Shown: one piece after another, positions 30,631 to 37,726 of the stretch
Numbering within the stretch: position 1 is the first letter of the stretch
Layout: each line of letters starts with the position of its first letter
Assembly: GCA_017642935.1 (NCBI GenBank)
Contig: JAEPOK010000002.1
Span: 1,299,501-1,363,500, forward strand
Length of the DNA stretch: 64,000 bases
Origin: Hyphomicrobiales bacterium
Lineage (GTDB): Bacteria > Pseudomonadota > Alphaproteobacteria > Rhizobiales > MH13
Direction of reading: 5' to 3'
Notes under the pieces: model-generated
What the model was told of the DNA's origin: nothing
Databases searched by the model: none
What the model saw: the letters and a program-made list of their open reading frames with translations, nothing else
Position numbers and translations under genes: made by a program

Positions 30631-31716
30631 ATGGCACGCGCAAAGTTTGATGAGTTGGAGCGCGGCATCGCGCAAACGCGGGCCCAAGTGCAGGAGATCA
30701 ATTCCACGCAAGAGAAGATCGATGAGCGTCTTGGCACGGTGCTCGGCGACAGCCAGATGCAAACGATCGACGTCAACATCGATGATCAGGACTTCAAGGC
30801 TGTGGTGGAGAACGAAGACAAGTTGCAGGGCAACATTGCCTCGCTTGTCTACGGCCTGGACGAAATCACCCAGACGTTTGGTTCTGAGTTCAAGTCGATG
30901 AGCGAGTCGACATTCATGGAAAAGCTGACGGGCATTTTCTCGCGCCGCCGCGCTGAAGAGATGAAAACGAGCCGTATCCGCAACGCGGACATTCGCTCCA
31001 ACCTCAACAATCTGATCGAAAAGTCCGAAGTGATCCGCGGTCTGCTGGAAGAGCAGTTGGCGGTGATCGATGACCGGCTGGACAAATCCAAGACGGCCCA
31101 GGCCGATGTGCTGGACCGCGCGCAGACGACCGCCCGCCAGATCGAGGAAACCGATGCACAGCTTGACGAGTTGGCGCCGCAGATTTCGGCCATTGATGCC
31201 AAGATTGCTGATGCGACCGGCGAAGAGTTGAAAGCCCTCCAGGCCGACCGGGCGGAGCTTGCCAACACCTACAATGAGGCGACGGCCAAGAAGCAGGAGC
31301 TTGTGGCCACGCAGCAGTCTTTCGAGCGTTACGGCTCGATCTACGCCAACTATGTGGAAAGCTTGGCCAAGCAGAAGGCTGCACAGCAGACTCTGATCTC
31401 CAAGCTCAACATCGACACCGAACAGCGCACGATCATGTACGATGCGCTGGTGGAATCGCTGCGCACGTCGGCTCAGCAGAACATTGGTCACCGAATTGAT
31501 GATGTGGGCCGGGAAACTGATGCGCAGGCCGAGGCCATGATCACGCAGATTGGCATTTCTTCTGAAAACCGCATCGTTTCCATGATGGAAGCGCATGAGA
31601 TTTACATGAAGCGGACTGCTGACATTCGTCAGAAGGCGGACCTTGCCAACGCGGAGTTTGCACGCCGCTTTGGCAAGATCGTCGATCAGGTCGAATCCGG
31701 CAAATATGTCGAATAG
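30631..31716 (+). CDS. coiled-coil protein of unknown function, first gene of AAA-ATPase operon
   Basis: The 361-residue product is almost wholly charged helix with no signal peptide or TM segment. It starts with a short coiled coil (ARAKFDELERGIAQTRAQVQ), has a central LTGIFSRRRAEEMKTSRIRN segment, and heptad-rich helices at about 120-240 (LEEQLAVIDDRLDKSKTAQ, TARQIEETDAQLDELAPQIS). The C-terminal third (ISKLNIDTEQRTIMYDALVE onward) is better ordered and probably conserved. I recall such proteins labelled DUF6384 next to AAA and DUF2333 genes, but cannot confirm it. The next gene starts 12 bp after its stop. It may be a cytosolic scaffold or adaptor for the ATPase (inferred). Confidence 0.72.
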   Translation: MARAKFDELERGIAQTRAQVQEINSTQEKIDERLGTVLGDSQMQTIDVNIDDQDFKAVVENEDKLQGNIASLVYGLDEITQTFGSEFKSMSESTFMEKLTGIFSRRRAEEMKTSRIRNADIRSNLNNLIEKSEVIRGLLEEQLAVIDDRLDKSKTAQADVLDRAQTTARQIEETDAQLDELAPQISAIDAKIADATGEELKALQADRAELANTYNEATAKKQELVATQQSFERYGSIYANYVESLAKQKAAQQTLISKLNIDTEQRTIMYDALVESLRTSAQQNIGHRIDDVGRETDAQAEAMITQIGISSENRIVSMMEAHEIYMKRTADIRQKADLANAEFARRFGKIVDQVESGKYVE

Positions 31717-31728
31717 GTCTGCGCAGCT

Positions 31729-32748
31729 TTGAATGCGATCCACCAAACAACCCCCGATGTTCGGCGGGTCTATTTCCAGACACTGGCGCGGGTAACCGCT
31801 GGGCTTCTGCAATCCTCCGACACGGTGTTGGTGGATTTGGCCGCGCGCCTTGATGCGCTGTTTGGCTTGCTCGACAAGCGTGATGCTGGCGGCCTGCCGG
31901 CGCGGGTTGACCGCAATGATAGCGGCTTGCCGATCCTTGCCGATGTGATCGCGCTGGCGCGGGACGTGAAAGAGCGCAAAGAGCCGGAGCAAAGTTCTGC
32001 AAGCCTGCGCGAACGCCTGCTCGATCAGATGATGGAGCGACGTCGCGTGCCACGCGCCTTGCAATTGCAGGAGATTGGCCGGGTCATCTATCAGGAGGCG
32101 GTGCGTGGCGCGTTGCCGATATTCTGGCCGGAGGGGCGTTCGCTGAACCCCCAGGATGAGGGGCGGTTGAAGCAGATTTCCTGGGATCATTGGGACGGTG
32201 GCACCAACCGGCCTGTGTTCACCCAGGCGTGGCTCGAATATCGCCAGCCCCAAGCCTTCCCTCATACCGAGATGCAAGCTTTGGCGCGCAAGTTCTCCGG
32301 TACCGGATTTACGCCTTTGGCCAGTGCTATTGAGTTCGATGATGCGTTCGACACGATAGCGCTGAAACGCCTGAAACGGTGGACGCTGGGGCCGTTTTAT
32401 TCGCCCATCTTCATGGATGTTCCGCCAGCATTTGAGCCCTTGTTTGCCGATCTGCCCATCGAGGATGCCTGGATGTTTGTTTGGCACGTCGATGAGGTGA
32501 TGTCTGTGGGCACCGAAGAGACCAAAAGCTGGTTTTTGGCGCCGACCCGGTACCGCGAAACCTATGCGGTGGACACTACCGATGGGCTGGCCACAGAGCG
32601 TGGCGCCAGCGCCTCGCGCGCCCATGCACTGCTGCCGCACCGCGCTCATCAAAAACTGGCTGGCTATGATGGTGGGATCGACACGCTGATGCGCGGCATG
32701 CGCGTGCACTCGCTTTCGCCGGGCGGTGAGCTGTTTGAGGATATCTGA
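31729..32748 (+). CDS. unknown protein in AAA-ATPase operon
   Basis: No family recognised. The 339-residue product has no signal peptide or TM helix. The N-terminal half is helical (VRRVYFQTLARVTAGLLQSS, LVDLAARLDALFGLLDKRD, REVPRAL-like segment around residue 105); the C-terminal half is richer in aromatics (PIFWPEGRSLNPQDEGRL, WDHWDGGTNRPVFTQAWLEY, GPFYSPIFMDVPPAFEPLF, DAWMFVWHVDEVMSVGTEET). The start is probably the TTG at 31729; no ATG precedes the conserved-looking N terminus in frame, so the start is uncertain. It lies 12 bp after the coiled-coil gene and is followed by a nested hairpin before the ATPase gene. Confidence 0.68.
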   Translation: MNAIHQTTPDVRRVYFQTLARVTAGLLQSSDTVLVDLAARLDALFGLLDKRDAGGLPARVDRNDSGLPILADVIALARDVKERKEPEQSSASLRERLLDQMMERRRVPRALQLQEIGRVIYQEAVRGALPIFWPEGRSLNPQDEGRLKQISWDHWDGGTNRPVFTQAWLEYRQPQAFPHTEMQALARKFSGTGFTPLASAIEFDDAFDTIALKRLKRWTLGPFYSPIFMDVPPAFEPLFADLPIEDAWMFVWHVDEVMSVGTEETKSWFLAPTRYRETYAVDTTDGLATERGASASRAHALLPHRAHQKLAGYDGGIDTLMRGMRVHSLSPGGELFEDI

Positions 32749-32792
32749 GCAATGTCAGTAAAAGTTGCAGACTTTTACGCCCGCGACATTGC
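32749..32792 (+). promoter_or_regulatory. nested double-stem hairpin before the AAA-ATPase gene
   Basis: Two perfect 8-bp stems are nested: GCAATGTC (32749-32756) with GACATTGC (32785-32792), and inside it GTAAAAGT (32758-32765) with ACTTTTAC (32771-32778) around a TGCAG loop. It begins right after the TGA of the previous gene and ends 18 nt before the ATPase ATG, next to its ribosome site. No T run follows, so it is not a simple terminator. A role in mRNA processing, stability or translation is inferred. Confidence 0.6.
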
Positions 32793-32810
32793 GGCAAGGG
32801 GAAGTGTTCT

Positions 32811-34709
32811 ATGATCGAAGCGAGTTCGGTTCGCATTCCCGAAGCGCGGATTGTCGAAGCCTATCCGGCAGCGCTTGGCCTGATGGAAAACGCGCAAGTT
32901 GAGGAGGCTCTGCCGCGTCCCGCCGATGCGCCGGGCAGAACGCGCTTTGTCTCGCCTATCGCCGGTGCTTCGGCGCCACGCCGTATGGTACGCGCGAACT
33001 TGGAGGTGGCGCTTCGTAAGTCCGGCGGCGATGATCCACTGCTTTCGACGCGTGAGCACGGCATTTTGGTGTCGCTGCGTCGGGCGCTGGCTGTCGGGAT
33101 GACGGTTTCAGAGTTTTTCATCGAGCCGCTGGGGTATCTTGATCTCGGTGAAAAAAAACGCTCGTCCGGTCTCTCAGCCGCGGATGAAAGCCAATTTCGT
33201 TCGCTTGTGCGGGCACGGGCTCTGGTGGCGGCGTTTGTGACCGCTTCGCACTTCCTGCACGCGTTAGGCGACAGTCCGGCAGGCGACCCTACGGCGCTTG
33301 ATGAGCCAGGCTATGACACGGCCAACGACGCGTTGAGTTTTGTGGTGGCGCAGGTTGCTAAGGCTGCGACCGATGCGGTGGATGATGAAGATCTAGGGCC
33401 GCGTATCGCGCGTGCCATGGCCGACGTGATCGACCGTGTTGAAGGCGATGCGCACCGGATTATGGGCGACAGCTTGGCGGCGTTTCTGGCGCGCACCTAT
33501 GCAGTGGAAGCCGATGACTTCCATGTGCGTGGGTTCGAACGGTCAGCCTCGACGAAAGGCCGCAAGCCGCTGGTCATGCAGTTCAAGCAGGTGCACGAGG
33601 TTGTCGGCAACCACATCGCCAAGGCGCAGGCGATCAAGCTCGCCAAGATGCTTGTCGCCTACGACTTCGAACGGCAGAAAAACCCATTTGTCGAGCTGGG
33701 AGGGTTTCTTTTCACCTTTGTCGGCGATGGCTTTCCGGGCACTGGCAAAACGACGCTGATCCAGATGACTGCAGGTCTTGTGAAAGAATATTGCGATCTA
33801 GCCGGATACCCCTTCGTTTACGAGAATTTCGGCATCGATCAGATCAGCGAGTACCAGGGAAAATCAGGTCAGAACTGCCGGGCGTTCATTGACCGGGTTT
33901 TGGACCCGCAAGCCATCGGCTTTGGCACGATTGACGACATCGATCAGGTGGCCGGCAAGCGCGATGATCGGCAAAGTTCCTCGGGACAACAAGAGGTTAC
34001 CGGTGTCCTGATGGCCGCATTCTCCGGCGCGGAAACCGTTGTGCGTGGTAACGCCAGTTTCGGGATGTTTTCCAATTATCCAGAGAAGGTGGACGATGCT
34101 TTGCGCCAGCGCGCAGGCGCGCGTTGGCTGGTGGATGGGCCGCAAACCGAGAACGACTATATCGATATCTTCCACCTGCTTCTCGGCAACAAACATGACG
34201 TACCGCTCGGCCAGGATGACTTCTTTGCTGACCAGGCTTTGAAACAGGCGGTGGCGAAATCCTACGCGCAGCATAACCGCCCACAAGAGGATGGTTTGCT
34301 GGCGGTGTGGGAGCGCTTTGTGGATGAGCATGGGGAGCCGAAGACGATCCGTGATGTCGGGCTTTATCTCCATGCGATCAAAGAGGCCGAGCCACGTTTC
34401 ACTGGACGTGCGATTAAGAACGTGACGGATGCCATCAAATACCGTGCGATGGATGTCGAACTGCCGGATGAGTGGTTCGAGAATCCTGAGGCGTTCTTGC
34501 AGAAGGGGTATGACGACAAGCTGGCGATGATTGAGGACCTGCAAAAACCGATCTCGATGGACTTCATCTTGCAGGAGATCAACCGGTACGCGGACTCGGA
34601 GTTCCGCTACTCCGACAAGTCCGATGAGGCGGCGATTCAAGCGCTGCTGCGCGACCATCGCGTGCGCCAGAAAGCGTCTGAACGCCTCGACGACTTAGAG
34701 GACGACTAG
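32811..34709 (+). CDS. AAA-family ATPase of uncharacterised operon
   Basis: The 632-residue product has a helical N-terminal region (about 1-290) and one AAA module: Walker A VGDGFPGTGKTTL (Lys313), Walker B-like IGFGTIDDIDQV (about 369-380) and FGMFSNYPEKVDDALRQRAG, which fits the second region of homology with arginine-finger residues. The C-terminal 200 residues are helical (AIKEAEPRFTGRAIKNVTDA; ending LDDLEDD). No protease, nuclease or TM segment is seen. The N-terminal half has EEALPRPADAPGRTRFVSPI and two further helical blocks of unknown role. It is translationally coupled to the next gene (TAGTG overlap) and is the likely motor of the operon. Confidence 0.82.
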   Translation: MIEASSVRIPEARIVEAYPAALGLMENAQVEEALPRPADAPGRTRFVSPIAGASAPRRMVRANLEVALRKSGGDDPLLSTREHGILVSLRRALAVGMTVSEFFIEPLGYLDLGEKKRSSGLSAADESQFRSLVRARALVAAFVTASHFLHALGDSPAGDPTALDEPGYDTANDALSFVVAQVAKAATDAVDDEDLGPRIARAMADVIDRVEGDAHRIMGDSLAAFLARTYAVEADDFHVRGFERSASTKGRKPLVMQFKQVHEVVGNHIAKAQAIKLAKMLVAYDFERQKNPFVELGGFLFTFVGDGFPGTGKTTLIQMTAGLVKEYCDLAGYPFVYENFGIDQISEYQGKSGQNCRAFIDRVLDPQAIGFGTIDDIDQVAGKRDDRQSSSGQQEVTGVLMAAFSGAETVVRGNASFGMFSNYPEKVDDALRQRAGARWLVDGPQTENDYIDIFHLLLGNKHDVPLGQDDFFADQALKQAVAKSYAQHNRPQEDGLLAVWERFVDEHGEPKTIRDVGLYLHAIKEAEPRFTGRAIKNVTDAIKYRAMDVELPDEWFENPEAFLQKGYDDKLAMIEDLQKPISMDFILQEINRYADSEFRYSDKSDEAAIQALLRDHRVRQKASERLDDLEDD

Positions 34710-36016
34710 TGCAACGTCTCATTGAAGAGGGTCTGCGCTTTGGTGGGCTTTTGCATGTCGATCACGCCCATTTGGTGGCGCGCTACAACGCGGCGCTGAA
34801 GGCGCTCGGGCTGCCGGAAACGGAACTGACCGACTTTTACATCGATGCGTCGGGCTATTCCTACGAAGTGGCGCTGGAGATGCAGAACGCCAGCTATCTC
34901 GATCCGGAAGGCATCAACCGGCGCTTCATTATCCTGTCGCCTGACCAGGCCGATCTGCCGCTGATCCGCACCTCGTTCTCCGCCGATGGGCAGGTGATCC
35001 GTGCCTTCTTTGCGGCCAATGACCGGATGATCCGCGCGGTGACGCTAAAAGACGCGCTCTATGGCGAGATCGAGAACCTTGTGTTCGATGTCGAACGCCC
35101 TGCCGATGTGCTCGGCATCCGCGATGTGCGCTTTTTGGTGCGAACGCCAACCGGCCTGCTTGAAGAAGCACAGACGCTGAAGGTACAGATGGACCGGTTC
35201 CTGAAGGAGCCGAATGCTTGGGCGGACCAAAAACTGCTCGATGCCATCGTGTCCGGTGCCAGCCGTGTTGGCGATGTACGCCGCAACGGATTCCTGCCGC
35301 AAAAGCTCTCCTTCCAGTGGCCGAACGTCTTTTGGACCAGCCATTTCGGTGGCGCCTATGTGATCAGTAAGGACGATGGTGCTGTTATGATCGGCGATCC
35401 CGATCAGCTTCAGCCCAAGCCCTTTGGTGCGTCGATCATCGCGTTGCACGAAACGCCGGTGCTCTTTTCCTATCTTGAGGAAGAACGCCTGCTGGAGCCA
35501 TTCAATCCAAGATGGCTGAAAGAGTCCGGTATTTTGGAGCATCGCCTGCGCCTGCTGGTGGCGGAGCTTTTGATGCTGGGTGACCATGAGTTTGATGCCA
35601 CGCCGATGATTGACGACGCGTATCTGTCGCGCTGGATCGCCGACAACATGGCCAAGCTCAATCCCGATCGCAGGTTCCGCGTGGTCAGCCAGATGCGCGG
35701 GCTGCTCGATACACCGGCAGAAGCATCGGCCTATGAGCGGCGCTTAACCGCCGAGCAGCGCTTTTACTTCCGCCGCGCGGTGCCCGATGCGCCGGGTGCT
35801 GGCGACATCAATCGCATCATTGTCGAGCATCTGCCGTTCGATCTGCTCTCGACGTTTATTCTCAACAAACGCCGTTTTTATGCGATCTATGAAACCTACA
35901 CTGAGCGGCAGAAGGCGTTTGCGGTGGACTATCTGACCACCCATTATGCGCCCAACACCCATGACCGCTGGCGCATGCGCGCCAAAGTGCGCGAAGCGTT
36001 TTTCGGGCTTCATTAG
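34709..36016 (+). CDS. unknown protein, DUF6638-like
   Basis: The 435-residue product begins MQRLIEEGLRFGGLLHVDHA and has no signal peptide or TM helix. Segments include DFYIDASGYSYEVALEMQNA, RFIILSPDQADLPLIRTSFS, a central SFQWPNVFWTSHFGGAYVIS, and a C-terminal DLLSTFILNKRRFYAIYETY with YAPNTHDRWRMRAKVREAFF. I recall this kind of protein as DUF6638 beside AAA and DUF2333 genes, without certainty. The GTG start overlaps the stop of the ATPase gene by 1 bp, so the two are very likely made in a fixed ratio and may form a complex (inferred). Confidence 0.72.
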   Translation: MQRLIEEGLRFGGLLHVDHAHLVARYNAALKALGLPETELTDFYIDASGYSYEVALEMQNASYLDPEGINRRFIILSPDQADLPLIRTSFSADGQVIRAFFAANDRMIRAVTLKDALYGEIENLVFDVERPADVLGIRDVRFLVRTPTGLLEEAQTLKVQMDRFLKEPNAWADQKLLDAIVSGASRVGDVRRNGFLPQKLSFQWPNVFWTSHFGGAYVISKDDGAVMIGDPDQLQPKPFGASIIALHETPVLFSYLEEERLLEPFNPRWLKESGILEHRLRLLVAELLMLGDHEFDATPMIDDAYLSRWIADNMAKLNPDRRFRVVSQMRGLLDTPAEASAYERRLTAEQRFYFRRAVPDAPGAGDINRIIVEHLPFDLLSTFILNKRRFYAIYETYTERQKAFAVDYLTTHYAPNTHDRWRMRAKVREAFFGLH

Positions 36017-36040
36017 GCCCGCGCAAGAAGGACGAGAGAC

Positions 36041-37228
36041 ATGCTCGACCCCCTAATTGACTGGATCAAAGCCATGTGGCGCGGGTTTATCGCGCTGTTC
36101 CGCCTGCGCTTGCCAAAGCCTGAAGAGGGCGGGCCGGAGAAGATGCGCGGCGTTCGCGCCACGGGCCGTATCTTTTGGCGCGGCGGGCTGCTGATCTTCA
36201 TCATCCTGTTCCTTATCTGGAACATCACGTTTTTCTGGAATGTGCTTTGGACGCGCGGCGATACGCTGACCTATCCGCAAGAGGTGCTGCGCGCCAACGC
36301 GATGATTGCCACTGAAGAGACCGCGACGGTCGATGGCTCGCCAAGTGATGCGCGCACCTGCGACCGCTCACAGATCGTCGATATGCAGGTCTACCTGCTC
36401 GACTTGATGGTGAACCGCAACGCTTGGGTTCCGTCGATGCCGCAGTATAAGGTGGGTATTTTGGGGCTTATTGAGTGGGAGGCGACGCCCTATTTCGACA
36501 ACAAGGCTGCTTTTCAGACCGGCGTGTTGATCGCGTTGCGCCGCACCGCCGTTGAGCTGGTGGATGTGCTTGGTCGTGAGCGCGGAACCTCGGGCGCCGA
36601 TAGCGATTTGGAAACCGCCCGTGGTCGCTTGCAAACCGACGAGCAGACCTGGTGGTTCAACCCGTTTGACGATCAGCGTCCCTTTGGGCCGGTCCAGCCG
36701 TCCTCCCGGCTCTACGCCAACGCCATCCCGCTTTACGAGCGCTACAATGACCGGCTGGAAGCGTGCGATGCGCTGTTCGATGCGCGTGCCGACAATCTCA
36801 TTCAGTTCCTGGATCGTGTTGCCCGCGATATTGGCTCGTCAGTCGATCAGCTGTCGCGTCGCTCCACGGGCCGCCAGTATGACGCTGAGCTCGATACATT
36901 TGTGCGTGGCGAGGGCAATGATCGCGGCTGGTTCGACTTCCGGGCCGACAATCTTTTCATGGAAGCCTCGGGCCAAATGTTCGCCTATCACGGTCTGCTC
37001 CAGGCGGCGCGGGAGGACTTTGCCGATGTTGTGGCTTCTCGTAATCTTGGCGGCGTCTGGGACCGCATGGAGCAGCATATCGCTGAGGCGGCAGCGCTCG
37101 ACCCGCTGGTCATCTCCAATGGCCGCGAGGATGGCGTGCTGATGCCCGATCATCTCTCGATCATGAGCGAGAACATCTTGAGGGCTCGCACGAATATGAG
37201 CGAAATCCGGGGCATTCTAGAGCGGTAG
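36041..37228 (+). CDS. DUF2333-like single-pass membrane protein
   Basis: The 395-residue product has a basic amphipathic N terminus (MLDPLIDWIKAMWRGFIALF), one TM helix (GGLLIFIILFLIWNITFFW, about 48-67) and a large extracytoplasmic helical domain. Recognisable parts are MVNRNAWVPSMPQYKVGILG, LETARGRLQTDEQTWWFNPF and PSSRLYANAIPLYERYNDRL, which agree with my memory of DUF2333 (COG5345). It is the only membrane protein of the five-gene operon and could anchor the ATPase complex to the inner membrane (inferred). It starts 24 bp after the previous gene with a GAAGGA ribosome site. Confidence 0.78.
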   Translation: MLDPLIDWIKAMWRGFIALFRLRLPKPEEGGPEKMRGVRATGRIFWRGGLLIFIILFLIWNITFFWNVLWTRGDTLTYPQEVLRANAMIATEETATVDGSPSDARTCDRSQIVDMQVYLLDLMVNRNAWVPSMPQYKVGILGLIEWEATPYFDNKAAFQTGVLIALRRTAVELVDVLGRERGTSGADSDLETARGRLQTDEQTWWFNPFDDQRPFGPVQPSSRLYANAIPLYERYNDRLEACDALFDARADNLIQFLDRVARDIGSSVDQLSRRSTGRQYDAELDTFVRGEGNDRGWFDFRADNLFMEASGQMFAYHGLLQAAREDFADVVASRNLGGVWDRMEQHIAEAAALDPLVISNGREDGVLMPDHLSIMSENILRARTNMSEIRGILER

Positions 37229-37325: not shown

Positions 37326-37375
37326 CCGGCCCGTCGTGCTTTTCCGAAGTGACGATCCATCACCGAGGGGCACCC

Positions 37376-37726
37376 ATGATCGAACACGCGCTTGATATTA
37401 TCGTTCTAGCGATTGAGATCGCGGGCATTGGTGCCATCGTGATTGGTGCGGTGGTGTCGCTTGGCATTTATCTGCGCGGCTGGCTTGGCAAGGCGCCGCA
37501 CGAAGAATGCTTCAAAGCGCTGCGGGCCAATCTTGGGCGTTCGATCCTGCTTGGGCTGGAGTTTTTGGTGGCCGCTGACATCATCAAGACCGTGGCGTTT
37601 GAGCTGACATTGGAGAACGTGCTGCTGCTCGGAGGGATCGTGCTCATCCGCACGTTCCTCAGCTTCGCCCTTCAGGTGGAGATCGAGGGGCGCCTGCCTT
37701 GGAGCGGCAAAAGCGAGACGGTTTAG
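37376..37726 (+). CDS. DUF1622-like small membrane protein
   Basis: The 116-residue product has three hydrophobic segments: DIIVLAIEIAGIGAIVIGAV (about 7-26), SILLGLEFLVAADIIKTVAF (about 54-73) and NVLLLGGIVLIRTFLSFALQ (about 80-100), with a short basic loop WLGKAPHEECFKALRANLGR between the first two. The pattern fits DUF1622, inner-membrane proteins of unknown function. ATG 37376 follows GAGGGGC. A palindromic element separates it from the operon before it, so co-transcription is uncertain. Confidence 0.78.
   Translation: MIEHALDIIVLAIEIAGIGAIVIGAVVSLGIYLRGWLGKAPHEECFKALRANLGRSILLGLEFLVAADIIKTVAFELTLENVLLLGGIVLIRTFLSFALQVEIEGRLPWSGKSETV

Follow-up and report, generated by a model that had tools for sequence, protein, structure and literature searches.

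A conserved four-gene core around an AAA ATPase, usually followed by an exchangeable membrane-protein gene, in Alphaproteobacteria and Vibrio

Gene content of the locus

The window under study, a stretch of 64,000 nucleotides from a Hyphomicrobiales bacterium with a genome of 3.74 Mb, carries five genes on the + strand (A to E), the coordinates and spacing of which are exact in the initial annotation according to the positions of the open reading frames.

Gene A, 30631-31716, + strand: 361-aa coiled-coil protein, first core gene
Gene B, 31729-32748, + strand: 339-aa protein of no known family; predicted helical N-terminal part and C-terminal part with the order of a T-fold
Gene C, 32811-34709, + strand: 632-aa AAA ATPase (PF00004 match)
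Gene D, 34709-36016, + strand: 435-aa DUF6638 protein (PF20343 match)
Gene E, 36041-37228, + strand: 395-aa DUF2333 protein (PF10095 match); exchangeable fifth gene, not part of the core

The gaps A-B, B-C, C-D and D-E measure 12, 62, -1 and 24 bp, the negative value being a 1 bp overlap in which the G of TAGTG is common to the TAG stop codon of C and the GTG start codon of D. The family names DUF6638 for D and DUF2333 for E, given in the initial annotation, are both right. More specifically, D matches PF20343 (E 4.4e-69, whole-protein score 233.9 bits versus a gathering cut-off of 27), and residues 151-395 of E match PF10095 (E 1.1e-22, 80.9 bits versus a cut-off of 22). With the AAA match of C, these are the families returned by the Pfam profile search of each protein that had been proposed as a check; A and B, described at the outset as a coiled-coil protein and an unknown protein, have no credible Pfam family. 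Searches of the operon proteins against NCBIfam, PADLOC and PHROGs added no convincing family. Hydropathy gives no membrane segment in A-D and one in E, starting near residue 40, in agreement with the single-pass topology first described. Because a basic segment precedes this helix, the remainder of E (about 300 residues) is probably periplasmic.

The nearest named relative of the host is a Devosiaceae MAG with 87% identity in C. A DUF1622 gene at 37349-37726 was considered as a further member of the operon; the nearest relative (L078/L079) is the only other locus with such a gene after the operon, and the gene is therefore counted outside it.

The AAA ATPase

Gene C encodes a region of about 250 residues at its N-terminus followed by one AAA module, and is by its sequence a classical-type AAA ATPase. 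The PF00004 match (E 1.3e-10, 42.2 bits versus a cut-off of 21.2) is accompanied by all of the motifs that had been claimed for it: a Walker A of the form GDGxPGTGKTT, invariant in 15 aligned homologues and including Lys313, the Walker B segment FGTIDDID, of the form FGT(I/V)DDID, and a second region of homology (SRH) in which the sensor-1 Asn of FSN422 and the segment ALRQRAxAR, with the finger arginines Arg432, Arg434 and Arg438, are found in nearly all of 113 sequences. Pore loop 1 (Tyr348-Gln349-Gly350), with a tyrosine of the Cdc48/FtsH type, reads YQGKS in 113 of 113 C sequences and, with the Vibrio protein as query, is aligned to YYGQS of VCP-like ATPases. The window protein itself aligns with Yme1 (an i-AAA protease), such that Yme1 and VCP-like ATPases are the nearest solved relatives; a profile search of the PDB returned nothing at 1e-5, whereas queries with single sequences matched. 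No MIT domain was matched by Pfam in the window protein. Phage records gave no match to C, and viral contigs gave one only (27%, in the AAA module).

These motifs and alignments make a ring-forming, protein-threading motor the natural reading of the sequence of C. Its Walker B departs from the usual form: Asp375-Asp376 is present in 15 of 15 aligned sequences, with Asp where the catalytic Glu is usual, and the form GFGT-x-DD-x-D occurs in 109 of 113 C sequences, in none of which is Glu seen at that position. The Walker B of C thus does not end in Asp-Glu, and the assignment to the AAA family rests on the Pfam score. Since the Asp-Asp pair is conserved between bacterial classes, it characterises the family and does not mark the window copy as defective. 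The substitution suggests slow or switch-like hydrolysis; because it is found in all sequences read, ATP hydrolysis by C is not assured.

The partner proteins A, B and D

Protein A is conserved in length, is helical by sequence pattern, and has two helical stretches separated at Pro183, which is invariant. No credible relatives were found in Pfam, NCBIfam, PADLOC or the PDB beyond generic coiled coils. A relationship to TelA (PF05816) was considered, as both proteins are helical coiled coils of similar size with a short common motif, TFxEKLxG, and was rejected: profile comparison gave E 0.007-0.013, a larger TelA alignment left 14 columns with E 0.013, and TelA is absent among the Pfam matches listed for any A. 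Homology to PspA/ESCRT-III found no support at the level of sequence, a profile against a single PspA giving a probability of 0.3% and the Pfam matches listed for 23 members of A including no PspA/Snf7. In a single genome, a gene of the PspA/IM30 family (L075:4402-5115) lies just past the operon, with a TetR-like gene between.

The single-chain model of B (mean pLDDT 90.2) displays in its C-terminal half the bb-aa-bb order of strands and helices that is characteristic of the T-fold. In a VIA-align comparison of residues 143-323 that covered only the candidates of Foldseek itself, the 50 rows listed are essentially all T-fold proteins, including urate oxidase, 6-pyruvoyl tetrahydropterin synthase, dihydroneopterin aldolase, GTP cyclohydrolase I and QueF-like proteins, with Z from 8.3 down to 5.2; the best match (Z 8.3, rmsd 3.6, 118 residues aligned) is at a borderline level. 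Foldseek itself returned no match under E 0.2, a PDB profile search returned only E above 1, and no relation of B to T-fold families was found by sequence. The consistency of the rows, rather than the level of Z alone, is therefore suggestive of a T-fold, to which B would add a helical N-terminal part that the T-fold enzymes do not have. Asp204, Arg217, Gly221-Pro222 and Gln308 are invariant in B. One copy (L107:4503-5677, from a low-coverage MAG) is broken into two open reading frames, probably by a frameshift or an assembly error.

A possible T-fold in B raises the alternative of a ligand-controlled activase, modelled on CbbX and Rubisco activase, which remodel an enzyme. The T-fold half of B would bind a small planar compound resembling a purine or pterin, and C would remodel B or D in response, with A and E only positioning the complex. 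This reading draws on the predominance of T-fold enzymes in the comparison, the order of secondary structure elements and the invariant residues; however, a Z near 8 is reached by unrelated models, neither Foldseek nor sequence comparison connects B to a T-fold family, and T-folds bind their ligands at subunit interfaces, which single-chain models do not display. An activase is thus considered fairly unlikely.

The model of D (mean pLDDT 93.8) found no match in fold searches of the PDB and viral libraries, the best VIA Z being 4.4 for a helical pair, and a PDB profile search with D returned nothing. The lack of matches is no proof that the fold is new, since a model of 435 residues may hide matches of its individual domains.

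The 1 bp overlap between C and D, which had been taken as a sign of coupling, is not conserved; roughly half of the loci have unrelated genes separating C from D. The interval reaches at least 250 bp in 51 of 108 loci, and is a hot spot for insertion behind which D is intact. The inserts include Phd/PIN and RelE-like/HTH toxin-antitoxin pairs, HicB, a DUF559 endonuclease-like gene, an AbiJ_NTD4 protein and an IS element (examples are L106:11962-12626, L137:11930-12676, L144:11838-12290, L114:11813-12253, L044:9459-10481 and L208:10983-12728).

Conservation, distribution and transfer of the core

The conserved unit at this locus is the core A-D. All four genes follow one order on one strand in each of the 103 loci that hold them, far beyond chance, as recorded in the gene-neighbourhood survey across genomes that had been set as a check. 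The loci read comprise 87 with ABCDE, 15 with ABCD and a DUF1523 gene, one in which the contig ends after ABCD, and 8 that are partial; the latter are short or cut by contig ends, and their gene order and strand are still uniform. Of 289 genomes of the class, five have a DUF6638 match that scores above the cut-off, and the same five, with no others, have C. The chance of this co-occurrence is about 1 in 1.6e10 if genomes are independent, a figure that exaggerates its rarity as three of the five share a family. Gene B was found only in genomes with C (just 2 hits of 142). The original proposal of one unit around the ATPase has strong support for A-D, from their fixed order, their joint occurrence and their movement as a block, but not for E, which is not a fixed member.

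The core is present beyond the immediate relatives of the host, among which C occurs in 14 of 61. A scan of named genomes revealed 80 loci, mostly in Rhizobiaceae and related Hyphomicrobiales, and 26 of 398 genomes in a sample of the phylum possess the locus. One of these 26 (G385) lies outside the class and is taken from its gene content to be a putative gammaproteobacterium; family f24 is taken on the same basis to be putatively the Rhodobacteraceae (Rhodobacterales-like). In two named gammaproteobacteria, Vibrio parahaemolyticus and V. vulnificus, A-D lie on records of about 880-940 kb that are filed as plasmids, and two Vibrio records keep the same gene order and single strand. The pairwise divergences of A, B, C and D correlate at r 0.87-0.95. 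A locus from a genome of the same order as the window (L075) and that of G385 (L192) both nest inside the f24-type clade, which makes transfer of A-D as a whole block likely, including between classes.

The patchy occurrence of the core within the class (the five genomes noted above), its transfer between classes, and the toxin-antitoxin, AbiJ-like and DUF559 endonuclease-like genes that many loci carry between C and D could be read as signs of an anti-phage defence system built around the AAA ATPase, with DUF2333 or DUF1523 as membrane effector. However, PADLOC gave no convincing hit (best E 4e-4, with short or generic AAA and coiled-coil matches), and the inserts vary while A-D stay constant, so that they look like passengers. 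In Mesorhizobium, C is single-copy in 41 of 43 genomes (40 of 41 at high quality) and behaves as a core gene, often beside genes for thymidine kinase and formate-THF ligase; this near-universal presence makes defence or mobile cargo unlikely. Further, DUF2333 is widespread as a stand-alone gene in a housekeeping neighbourhood. A role in defence is thus regarded as very improbable. Thymidine kinase upstream and formate-THF ligase downstream are the recurrent flanks (annotated or recognised by eye), and flanks differ between families.

Passage of the core between bacterial classes as a block, and its retention by nearly every Mesorhizobium species, imply that A-D must do something selectable.

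The exchangeable fifth gene

A gene for a membrane protein follows D in all 102 of the A-D loci whose contig continues, 87 of which have DUF2333 and 15 DUF1523. These are unrelated families, the second identified as DUF1523 by Pfam, each occupying the fifth slot in its own clade; by hydropathy the proteins of the two families have one or two membrane segments overall, DUF1523 proteins mostly two. In a tree of concatenated A-D, a quick tree with a long branch to Vibrio, a well supported branch (SH-aLRT 99) has the DUF2333 loci together on a single side, and a weak branch (SH-aLRT 68) does the same for the DUF1523 loci; the three states of the fifth slot require a minimum of two changes. Neither family is found beside the Vibrio copies of A-D, where mfd (transcription-repair coupling factor) directly follows D (L206:12088-15549 and L207:12088-15549).

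Both families also occur apart from the core. DUF2333 is present in 82 of 289 genomes of the class, only two of which (G000 and G211) also have C, and DUF1523 in 8 of 278 genomes, in four of the eight within an A-D operon. DUF2333 as a fixed part of the set, as first proposed, does not hold given its substitution by DUF1523 in the second clade, the absence of both beside the Vibrio core and its frequent occurrence alone without C. Stand-alone DUF2333 genes (L049-L053) often adjoin trpS (tryptophanyl-tRNA synthetase), murJ-like and glnD-like genes, read by eye, a neighbourhood that may hint at what the family does.

With an anchor gene that can be swapped, and with none next to A-D in Vibrio, placement at the membrane may be dispensable. 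The fifth gene might even be a mere co-transcribed neighbour and A-D a soluble cytoplasmic machine with no role at the membrane, as would suit a slot held by two unrelated families, one of them (DUF2333) occurring alone in many genomes, and empty beside the Vibrio A-D. Yet the unbroken presence of a membrane-protein gene after D in the loci with continuing contigs stands against a soluble machine, and two unrelated membrane families in a single slot argue for a shared need; the soluble alternative is accordingly rated as distinctly unlikely, and membrane tethering of the A-D assembly is likely, though inferred.

A putative remodelling machine at the membrane

The reading preferred here, held tentatively and with a little less than even confidence, is that the products of the locus make up a single machine, driven by ATP, that remodels proteins at the inner face of the cytoplasmic membrane. 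C would form a ring (hexamer), grip a protein with its Tyr348-Gln349-Gly350 pore loop and pull it through the ring. Its natural substrate would be the coiled-coil scaffold A, which would be disassembled or rearranged in the manner of ESCRT-III by Vps4 or of the type VI sheath by ClpV, while B and D would be adaptor or platform subunits linking C to A. The product of the fifth gene, whether DUF2333 or DUF1523, would anchor the assembly at the membrane and place a domain in the periplasm. A housekeeping task in the envelope or in cell organisation fits best as the output. The choice of A as the substrate follows from the pairing of the genes; gene neighbours need not touch, and because A has no sequence relationship to ESCRT-III/PspA, this role is a guess.

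The closest known systems are Vps4/ESCRT-III and archaeal Cdv, in which, as at this locus, a classical AAA ATPase is paired in an operon with a coiled-coil protein and sometimes with a membrane protein, and in which the ATPase shares with C an aromatic-x-Gly pore loop for threading. The present locus differs from them in that A has no detectable relationship to PspA/Snf7, B, D and E have no counterpart, and Asp takes the place of the Walker B Glu. Operons that pair AAA ATPases with PspA have been described, and the A-D set is not recognisable in the available portion of that account (PMC11237479). Unlike such pairs, the present locus has a PspA gene nearby in a single genome (L075) only. A classical AAA ring that acted at the inner membrane on a coiled-coil scaffold unlike ESCRT-III, by way of a T-fold adaptor and DUF6638 and with a membrane anchor swapped between unrelated families, would be a bacterial machine of an undescribed kind; this fuller proposition is put forward as a speculative one that is much more likely to be wrong than right in its entirety.

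The unfoldases Cdc48/VAT, PAN and FtsH/Yme1 can be aligned with C over the P-loop, pore loop 1, Walker B, sensor 1 and SRH. C differs from them in its one AAA module, its lack of a recognised N-terminal domain and of a protease domain, and its conserved Asp-Asp Walker B. Because its nearest solved relatives thread substrates, C might alternatively unfold A or membrane clients for a general protease encoded elsewhere. However, none of the lineages examined has a protease gene in the set of five, and the stable co-inheritance of A-D suits a complex better than a list of substrates; an unfoldase of this kind is therefore judged quite improbable.

The conserved core places A, B and DUF6638 in a shared context, and it suggests that DUF2333 and DUF1523 may have a role in common. 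Laboratory strains of Sinorhizobium, Mesorhizobium or Rhodobacterales offer a simple genetic system in which to ask whether bacteria possess an AAA-scaffold machine other than PspA/ESCRT-III.

Regulation and earlier literature

The initial annotation had guessed at a role in stress or envelope remodelling, for which no backing was obtained from regulatory sites or from a phenotype in the literature searched. No EcfG site was found upstream of A in 106 loci, and RpoH-like sites, present in 9 of 106 upstream regions versus 3 in one shuffle, are not convincing. Scans for promoters and terminators did not exceed the level of shuffled sequences. The open literature searched yielded no paper on DUF6638 or on the A-D set and no experiment on the set, and none of the literature found gives a function for DUF2333 or DUF1523; the only DUF2333 paper found concerns a T6SS-linked locus of Pseudomonas and assigns no function. 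A ChvI-binding fragment has been located inside S. meliloti SMc02733 (PMC3687685), a locus tag that is putatively matched to the genes of the operon.
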